Source of the DNA: Cellulomonas sp. RIT-PI-Y | GTDB lineage: Bacteria > Actinomycetota > Actinomycetes > Actinomycetales > Cellulomonadaceae | DNA: 64,000 bases | Assembly: GCF_025642745.1 (NCBI RefSeq) | Contig: NZ_JANZKP010000015.1 | Location: 1 to 64,000 of the forward strand | Direction of reading: 5' to 3' | Shown here: piece after piece, positions 4,693 through 37,543 of the stretch | Position numbering within the stretch: the stretch's first letter is position 1 | How the letters are laid out: every line of letters starts with the position of its first letter | Position numbers and translations under genes: made by a program | The notes under the pieces: model-generated | What the model saw: the letters and a program-made list of their open reading frames with translations, nothing else | What the model was told of the DNA's origin: nothing | Databases searched by the model: none

Positions 4693-6005
4693 CGCCGGCG
4701 GCGTTCCGCCCGCGGGGAGATCACCGAACCGCGCGGCAGCACCACGTCCGGGTCCATCGCCTTGGGCACACCGGTGAGGAACAGGGCGAAGACCGCCGGT
4801 CGGCGCTGCGCCAGCTCCAGCCGGGCACCGTCCCCCGCAGCCAGGTCCCGGGCCAGCGCGAGACCGAGGCCGGTGCCCTTCCCGCTGGTGACCTCGCGTT
4901 CGAAGATCCGCGGCGCCAGCTCGTCGTCGACGCCCTCGCCCTGGTCGGCGACCTCCAGGACCACAGCCCGGGAGGCGCCCTCCCGGGAGCGCACCGTGGT
5001 GGTGCCGCCGCCGTGCCGCAGCGAGTTCTCGATCAGGGTGGCCAGCACCTGTGCCAGGCCGCCCGGCGTGACGAGCACCTGCGCCCGGGGGTCGACCTCG
5101 ATCACCAGCTCGCGGCCCTCGGCCTCGAAGGTGGGCCGCCACTCCTCCTCCTGCTGGTGCACCACGTCCAGCAGCCGCACCGCCTCGGTGGTGCCGCCCT
5201 GGGCCCGGCGGGAGTTGGTCAGCAGGTCGTCGACCACCCGGACCAGTCGCTCCACCTGCTCCAGCGAGATCCGGGCCTCCTCGCGCACCGCCTCGTCGTC
5301 GGTGGCGAGCATGATCTCCTCCAGCCGCATGGACAGCGCGGTCAGCGGTGTGCGCAGCTGGTGCGAGGCGTCCGAGGCGAACTGCCGTTCCGCGGCCAGC
5401 CGTCCCGCCATCCGGTCCGCGGACCGCGCGAGCTCGGCGGCCACCAGGTCGATCTCCTCCACGCCCGAGGGCTCCAACTGGGGACGCACCTGCCCCGAGC
5501 CGAGCTGCTCGGCGGACGCGGCCAGGTAGACCAGCGGCGCGGCCAGGCGGTTCGCCTGCCAGATCGCGGTCGCGATGCCCGCCGCGAAGGCGACCAGGGC
5601 GGCCGCCACCACCAGCCCCACCACCCGGCCGCTCAGCAGGAACAGGTCCCACCACTCGGCGTACAGGGTGACCCGGGCACCGCTGGCCGAGGTCTCGGTG
5701 ACCGTCTCCGGCCGTGACGGCACCTCCGGGCCGGCCTGGAACCGCGCACCGTCCTCGGTCACCACGTAGATCGACACCGGGGTGCCGTCCCGTTCGACGT
5801 AGGGCTCGAGCATGGCGTCGGACAGCGGGGTGCCCTCGGCCAGCCGGTTGTCGATCATCCGGGCGACGTCACTGGCCCGGGTCTGCAGCTGGGAGACCTC
5901 GGTCTCCCGGATGTACTGGGCGCCGATGAACGCGAGCGGGAAGCCGAGCAGCACCACCGCCACGGTGACGGCCGCGATGGTGGCCTGGAGGACACGGCGA
6001 CGCAC
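4689..6005 (-). CDS. Two-component sensor histidine kinase (OmpR-system type)
   Basis: Membrane sensor kinase of 438 residues paired with the response regulator just upstream. It has an N-terminal membrane helix (about residues 7-30), a short extracytoplasmic sensor region of roughly 100 residues, a second membrane helix (LLSGRVVGLVVAAALVAF), a HAMP linker, a HisKA segment with the phosphorylated histidine in SDASHQLRTPLTAL (His215) and a HATPase domain with N box TLIENSLRHGGG and G boxes DQGEGV and GKGTGLGLALA. The gene starts with GTG 3 nt after the regulator's stop, so both are one operon. The sensed signal cannot be told from sequence. The C-terminal 25 residues are unrelated to the catalytic core. 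Confidence 0.94.
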   Translation of the reverse strand: MRRRVLQATIAAVTVAVVLLGFPLAFIGAQYIRETEVSQLQTRASDVARMIDNRLAEGTPLSDAMLEPYVERDGTPVSIYVVTEDGARFQAGPEVPSRPETVTETSASGARVTLYAEWWDLFLLSGRVVGLVVAAALVAFAAGIATAIWQANRLAAPLVYLAASAEQLGSGQVRPQLEPSGVEEIDLVAAELARSADRMAGRLAAERQFASDASHQLRTPLTALSMRLEEIMLATDDEAVREEARISLEQVERLVRVVDDLLTNSRRAQGGTTEAVRLLDVVHQQEEEWRPTFEAEGRELVIEVDPRAQVLVTPGGLAQVLATLIENSLRHGGGTTTVRSREGASRAVVLEVADQGEGVDDELAPRIFEREVTSGKGTGLGLALARDLAAGDGARLELAQRRPAVFALFLTGVPKAMDPDVVLPRGSVISPRAERRRR

Positions 6006-12373: not shown

Positions 12374-12391
12374 GCCAGGAGGTCACGGGCC

Positions 12392-12433
12392 CACGACGCC
12401 CCGGACGGACACAAGTCCGTCCGGGGCGTCGTG
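12392..12433 (+). terminator. Strong hairpin terminator after ABC exporter
   Basis: Perfect 19-bp stem (12392-12410 with 12415-12433) and an ACAA tetraloop, starting 18 bp after the permease stop. It lacks a U-tract, as is usual for terminators at this GC content, and may act in both directions toward the convergent gene at 12547. Confidence 0.85.
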
Positions 12434-12546
12434 GCAGGGGCGGCGCGATCGGCGCGCGTCCTCACGCCCGAGGGCGATCCGGGCGCATCGTCGTGCGCGA
12501 AGCACGACCCGGGCTGCCGATCGCCGGGTTTCCCTGCACTGACCGG

Positions 12547-13355: not shown

Positions 13356-13604
13356 ATGGATTGGCGCCACGAGGCTGCGTGTCTGACCGAGGACCCGGAG
13401 CTGTTCTTCCCGATCGGGAACACCGGCCCGGCCCTTCTGCAGATCGAAGAGGCGAAGGCTGTCTGCCGCCGGTGTGACGTCGTCGACACCTGCCTCAAGT
13501 GGGCGCTGGAGTCCGGTCAGGACGCCGGCGTCTGGGGCGGCCTGTCCGAGGACGAGCGTCGCGCGCTGAAGCGCCGCACCGCCCGCCAGCGCCGCGCCAG
13601 CTGA
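13356..13604 (+). CDS. whiB1: WhiB1-type iron-sulfur transcriptional regulator
   Basis: An 82-residue WhiB-like protein whose sequence closely follows mycobacterial WhiB1 and streptomycete WblE. The [4Fe-4S] ligands are Cys9, Cys37, Cys40 and Cys46 (AVCRRCDVVDTC), followed by the turn GVWGGLSEDERRAL and a basic DNA-contact tail KRRTARQRRAS. WhiB1-type proteins bind the principal sigma factor, react with nitric oxide and are essential in mycobacteria. I choose ATG 13356 (MDWRHEAAC) with GAGGAG at 13342-13347; an in-frame GTG at 13347 overlaps that ribosome site. A terminator follows, so it is a single-gene transcript with a long upstream region carrying an inverted repeat. Confidence 0.97.
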   Translation: MDWRHEAACLTEDPELFFPIGNTGPALLQIEEAKAVCRRCDVVDTCLKWALESGQDAGVWGGLSEDERRALKRRTARQRRAS

Positions 13605-13627
13605 GACTTCCGCCCTCCACGCGGACC

Positions 13628-13667
13628 CGCGATGCCCGCCACTCCTTCCGGGGTGGCGGGCATCGCG
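13628..13667 (+). terminator. Terminator after whiB1
   Basis: Perfect 15-bp stem, 13628-13642 pairing with 13653-13667, loop of 10 nt, beginning 24 bp after the whiB1 stop. No U-tract. Confidence 0.82.
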
Positions 13668-13714
13668 CGTTGACCCCCGAGGCGGCACGGTGTTCCGCCG
13701 GGTAACGGAGCACG

Positions 13715-13789
13715 CCGCGAGATCGGTACATCGGTCGTGAGGTCGGTACCCCGGGGACCGAAGTGGCCACCGATGTACCGATGTCGCGG
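13715..13789. repeat. 75-bp palindromic element, copy A
   Basis: Twenty-one-base arms (13715-13735 and 13769-13789) pair at 20 of 21 positions, ending in CCGCGA and TCGCGG. The centre contains GGTCGGTACC and GGGGACCGA, which can extend the stem. Copy B at 14060-14134 has the same length and is identical at 64 of 75 positions by my hand alignment. No coding frame explains it. It lies between convergent genes, 50 bp beyond the whiB1 terminator. Confidence 0.85.
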
Positions 13790-13927
13790 AGAGCCGACGT
13801 CGCTTGGGAGCGTCTGCCACCGGGACGCACAGGCGTCGAACGGCCGGACGGCGTCCCCACCTGGAGTCGCCGCGCGTCGGCCGGTGGTGACCGCACCTGC
13901 GGGGCGAGCCCGCACGGCGGCCAGCCC

Positions 13928-13965
13928 GAGGTCGGCCCTTCACCCTGAGGTCGGCACTTCACCGC
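13928..13965 (+). repeat. Two tandem 19-bp units, core GAGGTCGGCACTTC
   Basis: Units at 13928-13946 and 13947-13965 begin GAGGTCGGCCCTTCACC and GAGGTCGGCACTTCACC. The same unit occurs as a five-copy array on the other strand at 37422-37514. The nearby GCCGACCTCGG at 13986-13996 is a further inverted half. Confidence 0.75.
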
Positions 13966-14059
13966 CGTCCCATAGGACGCAACCGCCGACCTCGGCGACG
14001 GGCAGCCCCGTCGCCCGCCCCCGGAGACCCTCGGAACCAGGGCCGGGCAGCGAGGTGCG

Positions 14060-14134
14060 CCGCGAATTCGGTACCTCGGTCGTGAGATCGGCACCTCGGA
14101 GACCGAAGTGGTCGCAGATGTACCGAAGTCGCGG
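14060..14134. repeat. 75-bp palindromic element, copy B
   Basis: Same layout as copy A: arms at 14060-14080 and 14114-14134 pair at 17 of 21 positions, again with CCGCGA and TCGCGG at the ends. Centre to centre the copies are 345 bp apart in the same orientation. The arms are less perfect than in copy A, so it may be older or relaxed. Confidence 0.82.
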
Positions 14135-14192
14135 GGGGACCGAAGTTGGGGGGGCCGACGCCGCGCAGGGGGACCGGAGCCGAGCAGGAGGT

Positions 14193-14229
14193 ACCGACGG
14201 CGCGTAGGGGTCACCGACGGCGCGTAGGG
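14193..14229 (+). repeat. Direct repeat ACCGACGGCGCGTAGGG, two copies
   Basis: The 17-mer at 14193-14209 recurs exactly at 14213-14229, a 20-bp period. It is the last repeated element before the kinase gene end at 14332 and may be a remnant of the same repeat family as the 75-bp elements (ACCGA core). The rest of 13605-14331 (727 bp) shows no gene. Confidence 0.7.
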
Positions 14230-14331
14230 AGCGACTCTCCCCGGGCACCGCCCACGCGCCCGCCCCACCGGACGGTGTTCGCCGCGCAACCGGTCGGATC
14301 CCGCACCCAGGCGGTTCCCGCTCCCCGACGG

Positions 14332-15819
14332 TCAGGCGACCGTGTTCGCCTCGCGCCCCGGTGCTCGCAGGTGTGCGCGCAGCAGGACCTGCGTGCCTCC
14401 GCCCGTGCGCGGGGCCCAGTCGATGGAGCCGCGCAGCTCGTTGGTGACCAGGGTCGAGACGATGGTGGTGCCCAGACCCGTGCCGGCACCGGCGTCGGCG
14501 GGGATGCCGGCGCCGTCGTCGGAGACCGTGACGGTGAGCTCGTCGTCCTGGCGGTCGGCGCTGATCTCGACGGTGCCGGAGTCGCGTCCGGCCAGGCCGT
14601 GCTCGACCGCGTTGGTGACCAGTTCGGTGAGCACCAGCGCGAGTGCGGTGGCGTCCTCGGCCGAGACCGCGCCGAACGAGCCCTGCACGACGGTGCGGAC
14701 GCTGGCGCCGGCGGAGGCGACGTCGGCCGCCAGACGCAGGCTGCGACCGACCAGATCGTCGAACTGGACGGTCTCGTCCAGGGTCTGGGAGAGGGTCTCG
14801 TGCACCAGGGCGATGGTGGCGACCCGGCGCATCGCCTCCTCGAGCGCGGCGCGGGCCTCCGGCACGTCCATCCGGCGGGCCTGCAGGCGGAGCAGAGCGG
14901 CCACGGTCTGCAGGTTGTTCTTCACCCGGTGGTGGATCTCCCGGATGGTGGCGTCCTTGGTGATGAGCTCCCGCTCCCGACGGCGCAGCTCGGAGACGTC
15001 GCGGCAGAGCAGGACGGCACCGATCCGCTCCTTGCCCTCGGACAGCGGGACCGCGCGCAGGGAGAGCGCCACGCCGTGCGCCTCGATGTCGGTGCGCCAG
15101 GGCGCGCGCCCGGTGAGGACCAGCGGCATCGACTCGTCGACCTGGGAGTGCTGCTGCTCGATCAGATCGGCGACCACCTCGACCAGGGAGCGGCCGACCA
15201 GGTCGTCCATGGCGCCGAGGCGGTGGAAGCAGCTGAGGGCGTTCGGGCTGGCGTACAGCACCTCCCCCTCGGAGTTCAGCCGGATCAGGCCGTCGCCGAC
15301 CCGGGGGGCGCCACGCCGGGGACCGGTGGCGGCGTCCGGCAGCGGGAACTCGCCGCGGGCGATCATGCCCATCAGGTCGTCGGCCGCCTCGACGTAGTTC
15401 AGCTCCAGGCGGCTCGGGGTCCGGACACCGCCGAGGTTGGTCTGCCGGGCGATCACCGCGACGGCGCGGCCGTCCCGGACCACCGGCACCGCCTCCTCGC
15501 GCACCGCGTAGGAGCCGAACCAGCGCGGTTCGCGGGAGCGCTGGGCGCGCATCTCGGACAAGGACTGCCGGAGCTGACCGCGCTGGCCCTCCGGCGGGTG
15601 CGAGCCCACGACGTCGTCGTAGTGCACGGTGGCGCCGGTGGACGGACGGCACTGGGCGATCGCCACGAAGTCGCCGTCCCGGGTGGGCAGCCACAGCACC
15701 AGGTCCGCGAAGGCCAGGTCGGAGATGACCTGCCAGTCGCCGACCAGCAGGTGCAGCCATTCCAGGTCGGCCGCATCGAGGTCGCTGTGGCGCTGCACGA
15801 GTTCGCTGAGGGTTGACAC
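14332..15819 (-). CDS. Cytosolic sensor histidine kinase, PdtaS-like (GAF-PAS-HisKA_2)
   Basis: A soluble 495-residue kinase with no membrane segment. The order is an N-terminal GAF-like domain (about residues 10-150), a PAS domain (about 165-285, IRLNSEGEVLYASPNALSCF) and a HisKA_2/HATPase unit with phospho-His296 in REIHHRVKNNLQTVAALLRL, then VLTELVTNAVEHGLAG and DDGAGIPADAGAGTGLGTTI. This matches mycobacterial PdtaS, which works with an ANTAR regulator that binds RNA. The ANTAR protein at 47343 in this window has a PAS rather than a receiver domain, so it need not be the partner. GTG at 15819 is 6 nt after TACCCT (15826-15831), leaderless. It runs toward whiB1 across the repeat-rich spacer. 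Confidence 0.92.
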   Translation of the reverse strand: MSTLSELVQRHSDLDAADLEWLHLLVGDWQVISDLAFADLVLWLPTRDGDFVAIAQCRPSTGATVHYDDVVGSHPPEGQRGQLRQSLSEMRAQRSREPRWFGSYAVREEAVPVVRDGRAVAVIARQTNLGGVRTPSRLELNYVEAADDLMGMIARGEFPLPDAATGPRRGAPRVGDGLIRLNSEGEVLYASPNALSCFHRLGAMDDLVGRSLVEVVADLIEQQHSQVDESMPLVLTGRAPWRTDIEAHGVALSLRAVPLSEGKERIGAVLLCRDVSELRRRERELITKDATIREIHHRVKNNLQTVAALLRLQARRMDVPEARAALEEAMRRVATIALVHETLSQTLDETVQFDDLVGRSLRLAADVASAGASVRTVVQGSFGAVSAEDATALALVLTELVTNAVEHGLAGRDSGTVEISADRQDDELTVTVSDDGAGIPADAGAGTGLGTTIVSTLVTNELRGSIDWAPRTGGGTQVLLRAHLRAPGREANTVA

Positions 15820-37362: not shown

Positions 37363-37421
37363 GCCCGCGCCGCCGTGCCGTCCGTGACCATCGAGCTCGG
37401 CAGCTCGCCCCGCAGAGGGCC

Positions 37422-37514
37422 CGGCGGACTGCCGACCTCGGGCAGAAGTGCCCACCTCGGGCAGAGCTGCCGACCTCGGGCGGACTGCCGACCCCGGGAG
37501 GAAGTGCCCACCTC
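37422..37514 (-). repeat. Five tandem 18-19-bp units between nhaA and dsbA-like gene
   Basis: Read on the minus strand each unit begins GAGGT(C/G)GGCA and most continue (C/G)TTC or GCTC then a CC-rich tail; on the plus strand the units end at 37439, 37458, 37477, 37495 and 37514. Unit length is 19, 19, 18 and 19 bp for the last four. The same unit occurs twice at 13928-13965. The spacing differs from the codon period and no frame is conserved, so this is a non-coding array filling most of a 181-bp convergent spacer. Confidence 0.8.
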
Positions 37515-37543
37515 GGGCGGGGCGACGGCGGGGGCGGAGCGGG

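Follow-up and report, generated by a model that had tools for sequence, protein, structure and literature searches.

A dispersed, REP-like family of four-box palindromic DNA elements in Cellulomonas

The whiB–kinase gap and its two element copies

The window analysed here, a stretch of 64,000 nucleotides from Cellulomonas sp. RIT-PI-Y, contains a WhiB-family regulator gene and a sensor histidine kinase gene that converge on a long gap, in which two copies (A and B) of a palindromic element lie among other box-like repeats. The features, including one related array elsewhere in the window, are:

13356..13604, + strand: WhiB-family regulator gene, upstream of the elements (PF02467, E 5.1e-27)
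13625..13670, unstranded: ordinary terminator-like hairpin just 3′ of whiB (21-nt arms, 90% complementary, 4 nt between them)
13715..13789, unstranded: four-box element, copy A, with boxes at about 13718-13726 (+), 13738-13746 (+), 13758-13766 (-) and 13778-13786 (-)
13922..13959, + strand: pair of 19-bp boxes in direct orientation, of a second type (GAGGTCGGC...), in the whiB–kinase gap, from a repeat search
14060..14134, unstranded: four-box element, copy B, more decayed than A, from sequence and repeat comparison
14193..14229, - strand: two identical 17-mers 20 bp apart, ACCGACGGCGCGTAGGG, a box-like unit in the whiB–kinase gap, from reading the sequence
14332..15819, - strand: PdtaS-type sensor histidine kinase gene, convergent with whiB (PF12282, PF07568, PF02518)
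37428..37518, - strand: direct array of about five 19-bp boxes of the second type (TRF period 19, 4.8 copies), in the convergent gap 37363-37543

The preliminary description of this locus had given A and B as equal in length and identical at 64 of 75 bases, and this is confirmed: across 200 dinucleotide shuffles of 13605-14331 the best pair matched at 46 of 75 positions, with a mean of 40.1. The ungapped likeness extends a further 18 bp upstream (93 nt in total, 82%). Copy A also has the 21-bp arms with one mismatch (at position 7) and the ends CCGCGA/TCGCGG that had been read from it, while B is the poorer palindrome, with mismatches at positions 7, 16, 19, 21 and on. When folded as RNA, A reaches -50.8 kcal/mol (z -6.56, none of 200 shuffles as good) and B -34.4 kcal/mol (z -3.16, 2 of 200 as good); once its flanks are included, the fold of B is unremarkable (z -0.32, 66 of 200).

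At 727 bp the gap is unusually swollen, given that its orthologues in the genus have a median of 147.5 bp and a maximum of 301 bp (26 of 30 gaps, those with readable lengths). Among named records the closest kinases are those of Cellulomonas massiliensis (82%) and Cellulomonas sp. HZM (80%); other genomes of the genus reach 90%, and one of these, G023, contains 300 bases identical to strain HZM, on which grounds the genus is taken as Cellulomonas. By eye, the same gap in several Cellulomonas species (loci L208-L237) holds species-specific tandem arrays with units of 10, about 14-16, 19 and about 22 bp, and in an Isoptericola MAG (L063, about 5480-5580) the orthologous gap has about five direct 19-20-bp units of the CGAGGTAGCGCGTCCCTCGC type. 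The whiB–kinase gap is array-prone in general.

Copies, box versions and gene context

With copy A as the query, 16 places in the genome match at E 6e-4 or better. From 18 oriented copies, collected by similarity to copy A and to a consensus, we built a covariance model (R1), which returns 49 matches in the same genome with both strands counted, corresponding to about 25 places and at least 20 distinct full-length copies. Both A and B are themselves among the model copies, and score 84.2 bits (- strand) and 71.8 (+), and 78.1 (- strand) and 59.8 (+), respectively; the second-type boxes in the gap give weak matches at 13924-13997 and 13943-13997 (E about 0.04). Four further copies are severed at contig ends (the end of C17 and the starts of C60, C20 and C1; L268-L271), where an arithmetic estimate expects about 0.1 by chance, so the palindromes probably break draft assemblies, and may account for some of the contig breaks seen in them.

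A covariance-model search of this genome and its relatives had been proposed earlier as a check, and it finds many copies in both: at E 0.01, R1 matches 57 of 81 Cellulomonas genomes (this one included), with ten or more matches in 28 and none in 24. These counts take the best 60 candidates per genome with both strands counted and rough E-values, and part of the 57 rest on one weak match. A strict DNA consensus at E 0.001 matches only 2 of 39 genomes and the exact box-pair pattern 10 of 58 (none for a backwards control), owing to the fact that box versions differ between genomes. An order-wide search matched 20 of 396 genomes, and 15 of the 20 loci were inspected. These comprise G015 (L256), three intergenic arrays in family f13 (L251, L252, L254), and eleven others, nine of them within called genes, one (L260) with three boxes in direct orientation at 17-bp intervals where a gene ends, and one (L248) with no gene called around it. 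The f13 arrays, from three genomes of the same order outside the genus, have boxes of the form CGAGTTCGGG, and L254 has two forward and two reversed. Rfam gives no match over copy A or B up to E 1. A plasmid or phage origin was also tried and set aside, as copy A with its flanks has no match at E 0.01 in collections of either.

Chance, or a duplication confined to the whiB–kinase gap, would be consistent with the weak likeness of the 18 bp upstream of A and B. The shuffle test (46/75 at best, against 64/75) and the copies across the genome and in relatives reject both forms of this explanation, and we give it next to no probability.

The element is about 70-76 bp long and consists of four boxes of CGAG-N-TCGG (9-10 bp), each with a variable tail, two in forward and two in reversed orientation. 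Boxes of the same arm are 19-20 bp apart, and the two that face each other over the centre 21-22 bp. All 18 copies in this genome align without gaps at equal length, their boxes being of the GCGAGTTCGGTAC type, two forward and two reversed. The genomes G042 and G009 show the same layout with the box CCGAGATCGGTGSTTC at offsets 0/19/41/60. Allowing spacers of 0-30, the start-to-start distance is 19 or 22 bp for 24 of 27 exact box pairs in G009, and 19, 20 or 22 bp for 15 of 18 in G015. Both among our own copies and in G042/G009 the box columns are near-invariant and the spacers variable, though the latter elements were selected through exact box pairs, which partly forces their fixed letters to be constant but leaves the variable base free. 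At 40 sites in 13 other genomes, taken from the top of the R1 match list, the layout is kept and each has its own box: CGAGTTCGGCAC in G447 and G451, CGAGATCGG followed by TC or TG in G431 and G432, CGAGTTCGTCAC at one of two sites in G438, and CGAGCTCGG in G440 and G435. Box versions thus vary between genomes, and also inside one genome. For instance, a second subfamily, with the box CGAGATAGGACC/GCC in the same layout, occurs beside the main type in G042, G009 and G015 (L173, L185, L191, L238, L256, L274, L275). Exact pairs of second-type boxes 19 bp apart were also seen on contigs C9, C13, C22, C23, C38, C56 and C64 of the genome under study.

The number of boxes also varies (3+2, about 5 direct), as would be expected if the array were a local minisatellite, its boxes multiplying in place by replication slippage and strand switching with no dispersal. 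The other unit lengths seen by eye in the whiB–kinase gap of other species (10 bp, about 14-16 bp) point the same way. However, the same box and layout recur at many unrelated sites of one genome, and we regard this explanation as very improbable.

The copies are largely intergenic, with 17 of the 18 examined in this genome outside called genes. Throughout, genes were called by a codon-usage script rather than taken from curated annotation. Eleven of the 18 lie between convergent genes, 5 between genes of the same direction and 1 between divergent genes, and 1 overlaps a called gene (A and B are counted separately, though they share a gap), compared to 12, 39 and 11 of the 62 gaps in the window as background. 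In G042 (27 copies) the corresponding numbers are 16 convergent, 7 same-direction, 1 divergent and 3 overlapping genes; in G009 (12 copies) 4, 5, 2 and 1; and in the set of 13 genomes (40 copies) 16, 15, 5 and 2, with a further 2 at edges. The convergent excess is clear in this genome and in G042, and weaker in G009 and the 13-genome set. Among same-direction copies in G042 and G009, 10 of 12 are nearer to the 3′ end of the upstream gene, and the elements overall sit mostly behind stop codons. We found no convincing candidate for a partner gene within 700 bp of 96 loci; the gene clusters common to element loci, named largely by inspection, consisted of ABC transporters, LacI-type regulators, one group with a weak likeness to AbiEi, and true orthologous sites. 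In G042 (L180), G447 (L306) and G451 (L311) the elements have similar genes nearby, that of G451 weakly resembling AbiEi_4 and that of G447 MTES_1575, both below the cut-off, with no match for that of G042.

Pairing, orthologous sites and movement

The main rival to a DNA-level reading is an RNA-level element, in which the palindrome is transcribed from either side into a long hairpin that ends or protects convergent transcripts, as a bidirectional terminator or 3′ stabiliser; we judge this rather unlikely. Its placement downstream of stop codons, in many cases at a distance of some tens of bp or less, speaks for it. The compensatory pairing that had been named as a check does not, being absent among the copies of this genome: 74.9% of cells are paired compared to 77.7% in shuffles, of which all 500 were at least as high, and a first count on 15 unoriented copies and a separate script both agree. 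Selection for a hairpin inside this genome is thus rejected, the arms pairing no better than when shuffled.

For the 34 elements of G042 and G009 the picture is mixed. Pairing is 82.9% compared to 81.7% shuffled (27 of 500 shuffles), while the covariation score, 0.129 against 0.097, is above all 500 shuffles, with the largest excess at the variable base of the box and smaller excesses elsewhere. Spacer positions within the stem are often unpaired (24 of 34 at columns 17/54, for instance), which counts against a hairpin. The variable base agrees at 0.84 within an element compared to 0.54 between elements (35 windows, two overlapping), so that elements come in box types. Direct box pairs, which are unable to base-pair, agree as well (0.88 against 0.61 and 0.74 against 0.53 in the 34 elements), so the complementarity kept across orthologues at one site (below) does not single out a hairpin. 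Boxes that are kept, spacers that drift and the lack of compensation among our own copies fit phased DNA sites better than an RNA family.

Orthologous sites allow the same question to be asked of single elements. One such site, flanked by a UDG and an SDR gene (L007; PF03167 and PF00106), could be used in 25 of 30 genomes (G434 had no match, G443 a match in two pieces, and G001, G423 and G014 were truncated or partial), and in 15 of the 25 the next gene, whatever its identity, is convergent. A box scan of these 15 gives scores of at least 25 in seven; G431 has two boxes by eye, and seven have none. The score is 32, with four clear boxes, in G447, G451 and G448, and 26 in G009 and G015 and 25 in G432 and G453, where three boxes are clear and the second forward box is lost. 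In 391 160-bp chunks of the window outside known arrays the scan reached 25 four times and never 26 or more, so the scores of 25 for G432 and G453 rest also on visible 18-bp repeats. The array nearly fills the gap in G447 (gap of 81), G009 (82) and G453 (82), which speaks for the RNA reading. The eight aligned elements, each from a different species and our own included, show four box versions, with TCGGTAC and TCGGCAC close to one another, and predicted hairpins of -45 to -63 kcal/mol, which again favour an RNA reading. So does the complementarity of the first and last box, which is 86.8% paired against 76.3% over 17 pairs, with 17 double-change cells compared to 7.1 expected and none of 500 shuffles as high; the rows are related, so few independent events lie behind this count. 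Four box versions at one gap with complementarity kept argue that each element evolves in concert.

Many element gaps also contain a separate strong hairpin, as behind whiB, which weakens the case for a terminator. In a length-matched test other strong hairpins are not depleted in element gaps (20 of 58, compared to 22.0 (sd 2.6) expected). The idea that elements replace terminators is not used here, as a positive signal without length matching vanished once the pieces were length-matched; of two length-unmatched tests of hairpin substitution, one was positive and one not significant overall.

Other sites are less persistent. An array in the NUDIX–CtaA gap (L009; PF00293, PF02628) is found in only 2 of 29 usable genomes besides our own (of 30, G423 being truncated). 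Set against G009, ten of the 27 sites in G042 were comparable; for L169, L182 and L189 the stretches examined did not cover the site. Six of the ten carry the same kind of element, but these were found by pattern in both genomes, so the sharing is overstated. The other four pairs comprise one with another box type (L174/L238), one degenerate (L176/L239), and two whose G009 counterpart is without an element, L177/L241 and L170/L242, the latter with what by eye is an ordinary hairpin instead. In the reverse direction the one G009 site tested, L202, is kept in G042 (L246), and its counterpart in the window, near 12374-12546, has a plain hairpin and no array. Clustering of flanking genes gives further shared sites, for example L187 of G042 with L319 of G432.

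This turnover is among the points in favour of a second rival, a selfish miniature element without host function, copied by a transposase or by recombination and tolerated at gene ends, where insertions are least harmful, which we consider unlikely. Dispersed copies have unrelated flanks, and subfamilies coexist inside one genome. Additionally, seven copies overlap called genes, three of them at the C-terminal end, with coding log-odds of -0.12 to -0.55 in the element compared to 0.21 to 0.37 before it. For instance, an MFS transporter gene (PF07690) has a mid-gene element in G042 (L171, 2040-2109) and in its G009 orthologue (L203, 1971-2040) with the frame open in both, and in an alignment with chain 6kkk the element stretch is where the query is longer. 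Against a selfish element, no target-site duplication was found in sets of 18, 33 and 40 elements, at most two elements sharing a flanking direct repeat of at least 5 bases at any one offset. Y1 transposase (PF01797), the only transposase family searched, is absent from all nine genomes with boxes, our own included, while the same search was positive in 5 of 14 control genomes; mobilisation of the Y1/RAYT kind is thus rejected. Filled and empty orthologous gaps differ by more than the element (104 compared to 7 bp, for example), with no clean insertion, and some sites are kept between species. Movement of the element is nevertheless likely, given the dispersal with unrelated flanks, the gene overlaps and the filled and empty orthologous gaps. 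The earlier suggestion of a small mobile palindrome or a structured RNA family therefore stands as regards a family, whose copies are dispersed, and indirectly as regards mobility, while structured RNA is not supported by the copies of this genome.

Interpretation and comparison with known repeats

Copies A and B are members of a box-based, REP-like family of DNA elements dispersed in Cellulomonas. As to what the family does, we tentatively prefer, at somewhat less than even confidence, a phased-box DNA element that would be read by a DNA-binding protein and act at gene ends. Phased DNA boxes are favoured since the core letters and the pitch are kept, the spacers are free and the arms in this genome lack covariation. 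The functional unit would be the double-stranded box, bound by a putative protein, perhaps a dimer as the box is nearly symmetric, which could occupy a single face of the helix at two-turn intervals. With all four boxes bound, the element might then serve as a barrier or topological node at the meeting point of two transcription units, and of the mechanisms considered a protein-bound barrier would be the likeliest. Arrays would spread as whole units. The boxes within an element may be kept alike by template switching or recombination inside the palindrome, and template switching would explain joint change of the boxes whether the element is read as DNA boxes, RNA hairpin or selfish DNA. In yeast, template switching is described as making the arms of an imperfect palindrome identical (PMC8604942); a like action in Cellulomonas is our inference.

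Several observations count against DNA boxes, namely the strong predicted hairpin of copy A, the covariation in G042/G009, the complementarity kept among orthologues and the weak convergent excess elsewhere. Against a protein in particular, a single binding protein would not readily tolerate the differing box versions. It is possible, though we hold it doubtful, that the family represents an undescribed actinobacterial class, a four-site phased DNA array at gene ends in which the layout and some sites would persist over species while the box sequence switches blockwise, by site and by species, through concerted evolution in each palindrome, the reader seeing the layout or only the core CGAG-N-T-N-G.

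The known REP-type repeats come chiefly from other phyla and are linked to Y1 transposases or gyrase. Here the family is actinobacterial and genus-wide, is without Y1 and has a fixed two-turn pitch and concerted box switching at one orthologous gap, and these features make it a natural test case for the spread, the lasting symmetry and the intergenic action of extragenic palindromes. Its layout persists while the box letters differ among species and among sites. RepRanger counted palindromes in three Actinomycetota genomes, for instance 5,512 in Arthrobacter livingstonensis; as far as the excerpted text of that paper goes, this is a broad count running to thousands per genome, unlike the four-box family, and Cellulomonas is not mentioned (PMC12306157). 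The family looks undescribed, there being no description of it among the matches listed in open-access PMC text.

Like MITEs with terminal inverted repeats, the elements are small, non-coding and dispersed and have inverted repeats; unlike them, they are without a target-site duplication in the three sets examined and no parental transposon was identified. The ends of Tn7, Mu and IS21 have two direct boxes about two helical turns apart, in opposite orientation at the other end. In the Cellulomonas element, however, the two ends abut without cargo, direct-only arrays exist and no transposase is linked.

The closest known kind is that of the REP, BIME and REPIN repeats, BIMEs being marked by the binding of DNA gyrase or IHF. 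Like these, the elements are short, palindromic and extragenic, lie mostly in convergent or same-direction gaps near 3′ ends, often form inverted pairs, are species-specific and in some cases fall within genes; their dispersed copies, at least 20 of them full-length in this genome, are a further likeness. PMC3733652 places REP families in gaps flanked by convergent or same-direction genes, close to 3′ ends, and its passages on distribution give GTAG repeats in Proteobacteria, Cyanobacteria, Chloroflexi and PVC, and CGTC repeats in five phyla without Actinobacteria. A second source reports that BIMEs bind DNA gyrase and that REP copy number is usually above 100 per genome (PMC2817692). Unlike REP, the Cellulomonas element has, on our reading of the alignment, no GTAG or CGTC tag at the ends of its consensus, has no Y1/RAYT transposase in the nine genomes searched, numbers tens rather than hundreds of places in this genome (counts elsewhere taking the best 60 candidates) and has a fixed four-box layout with a constant pitch. 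Owing to the differences in tag, transposase and copy number we do not file it as REP, though it works like one.
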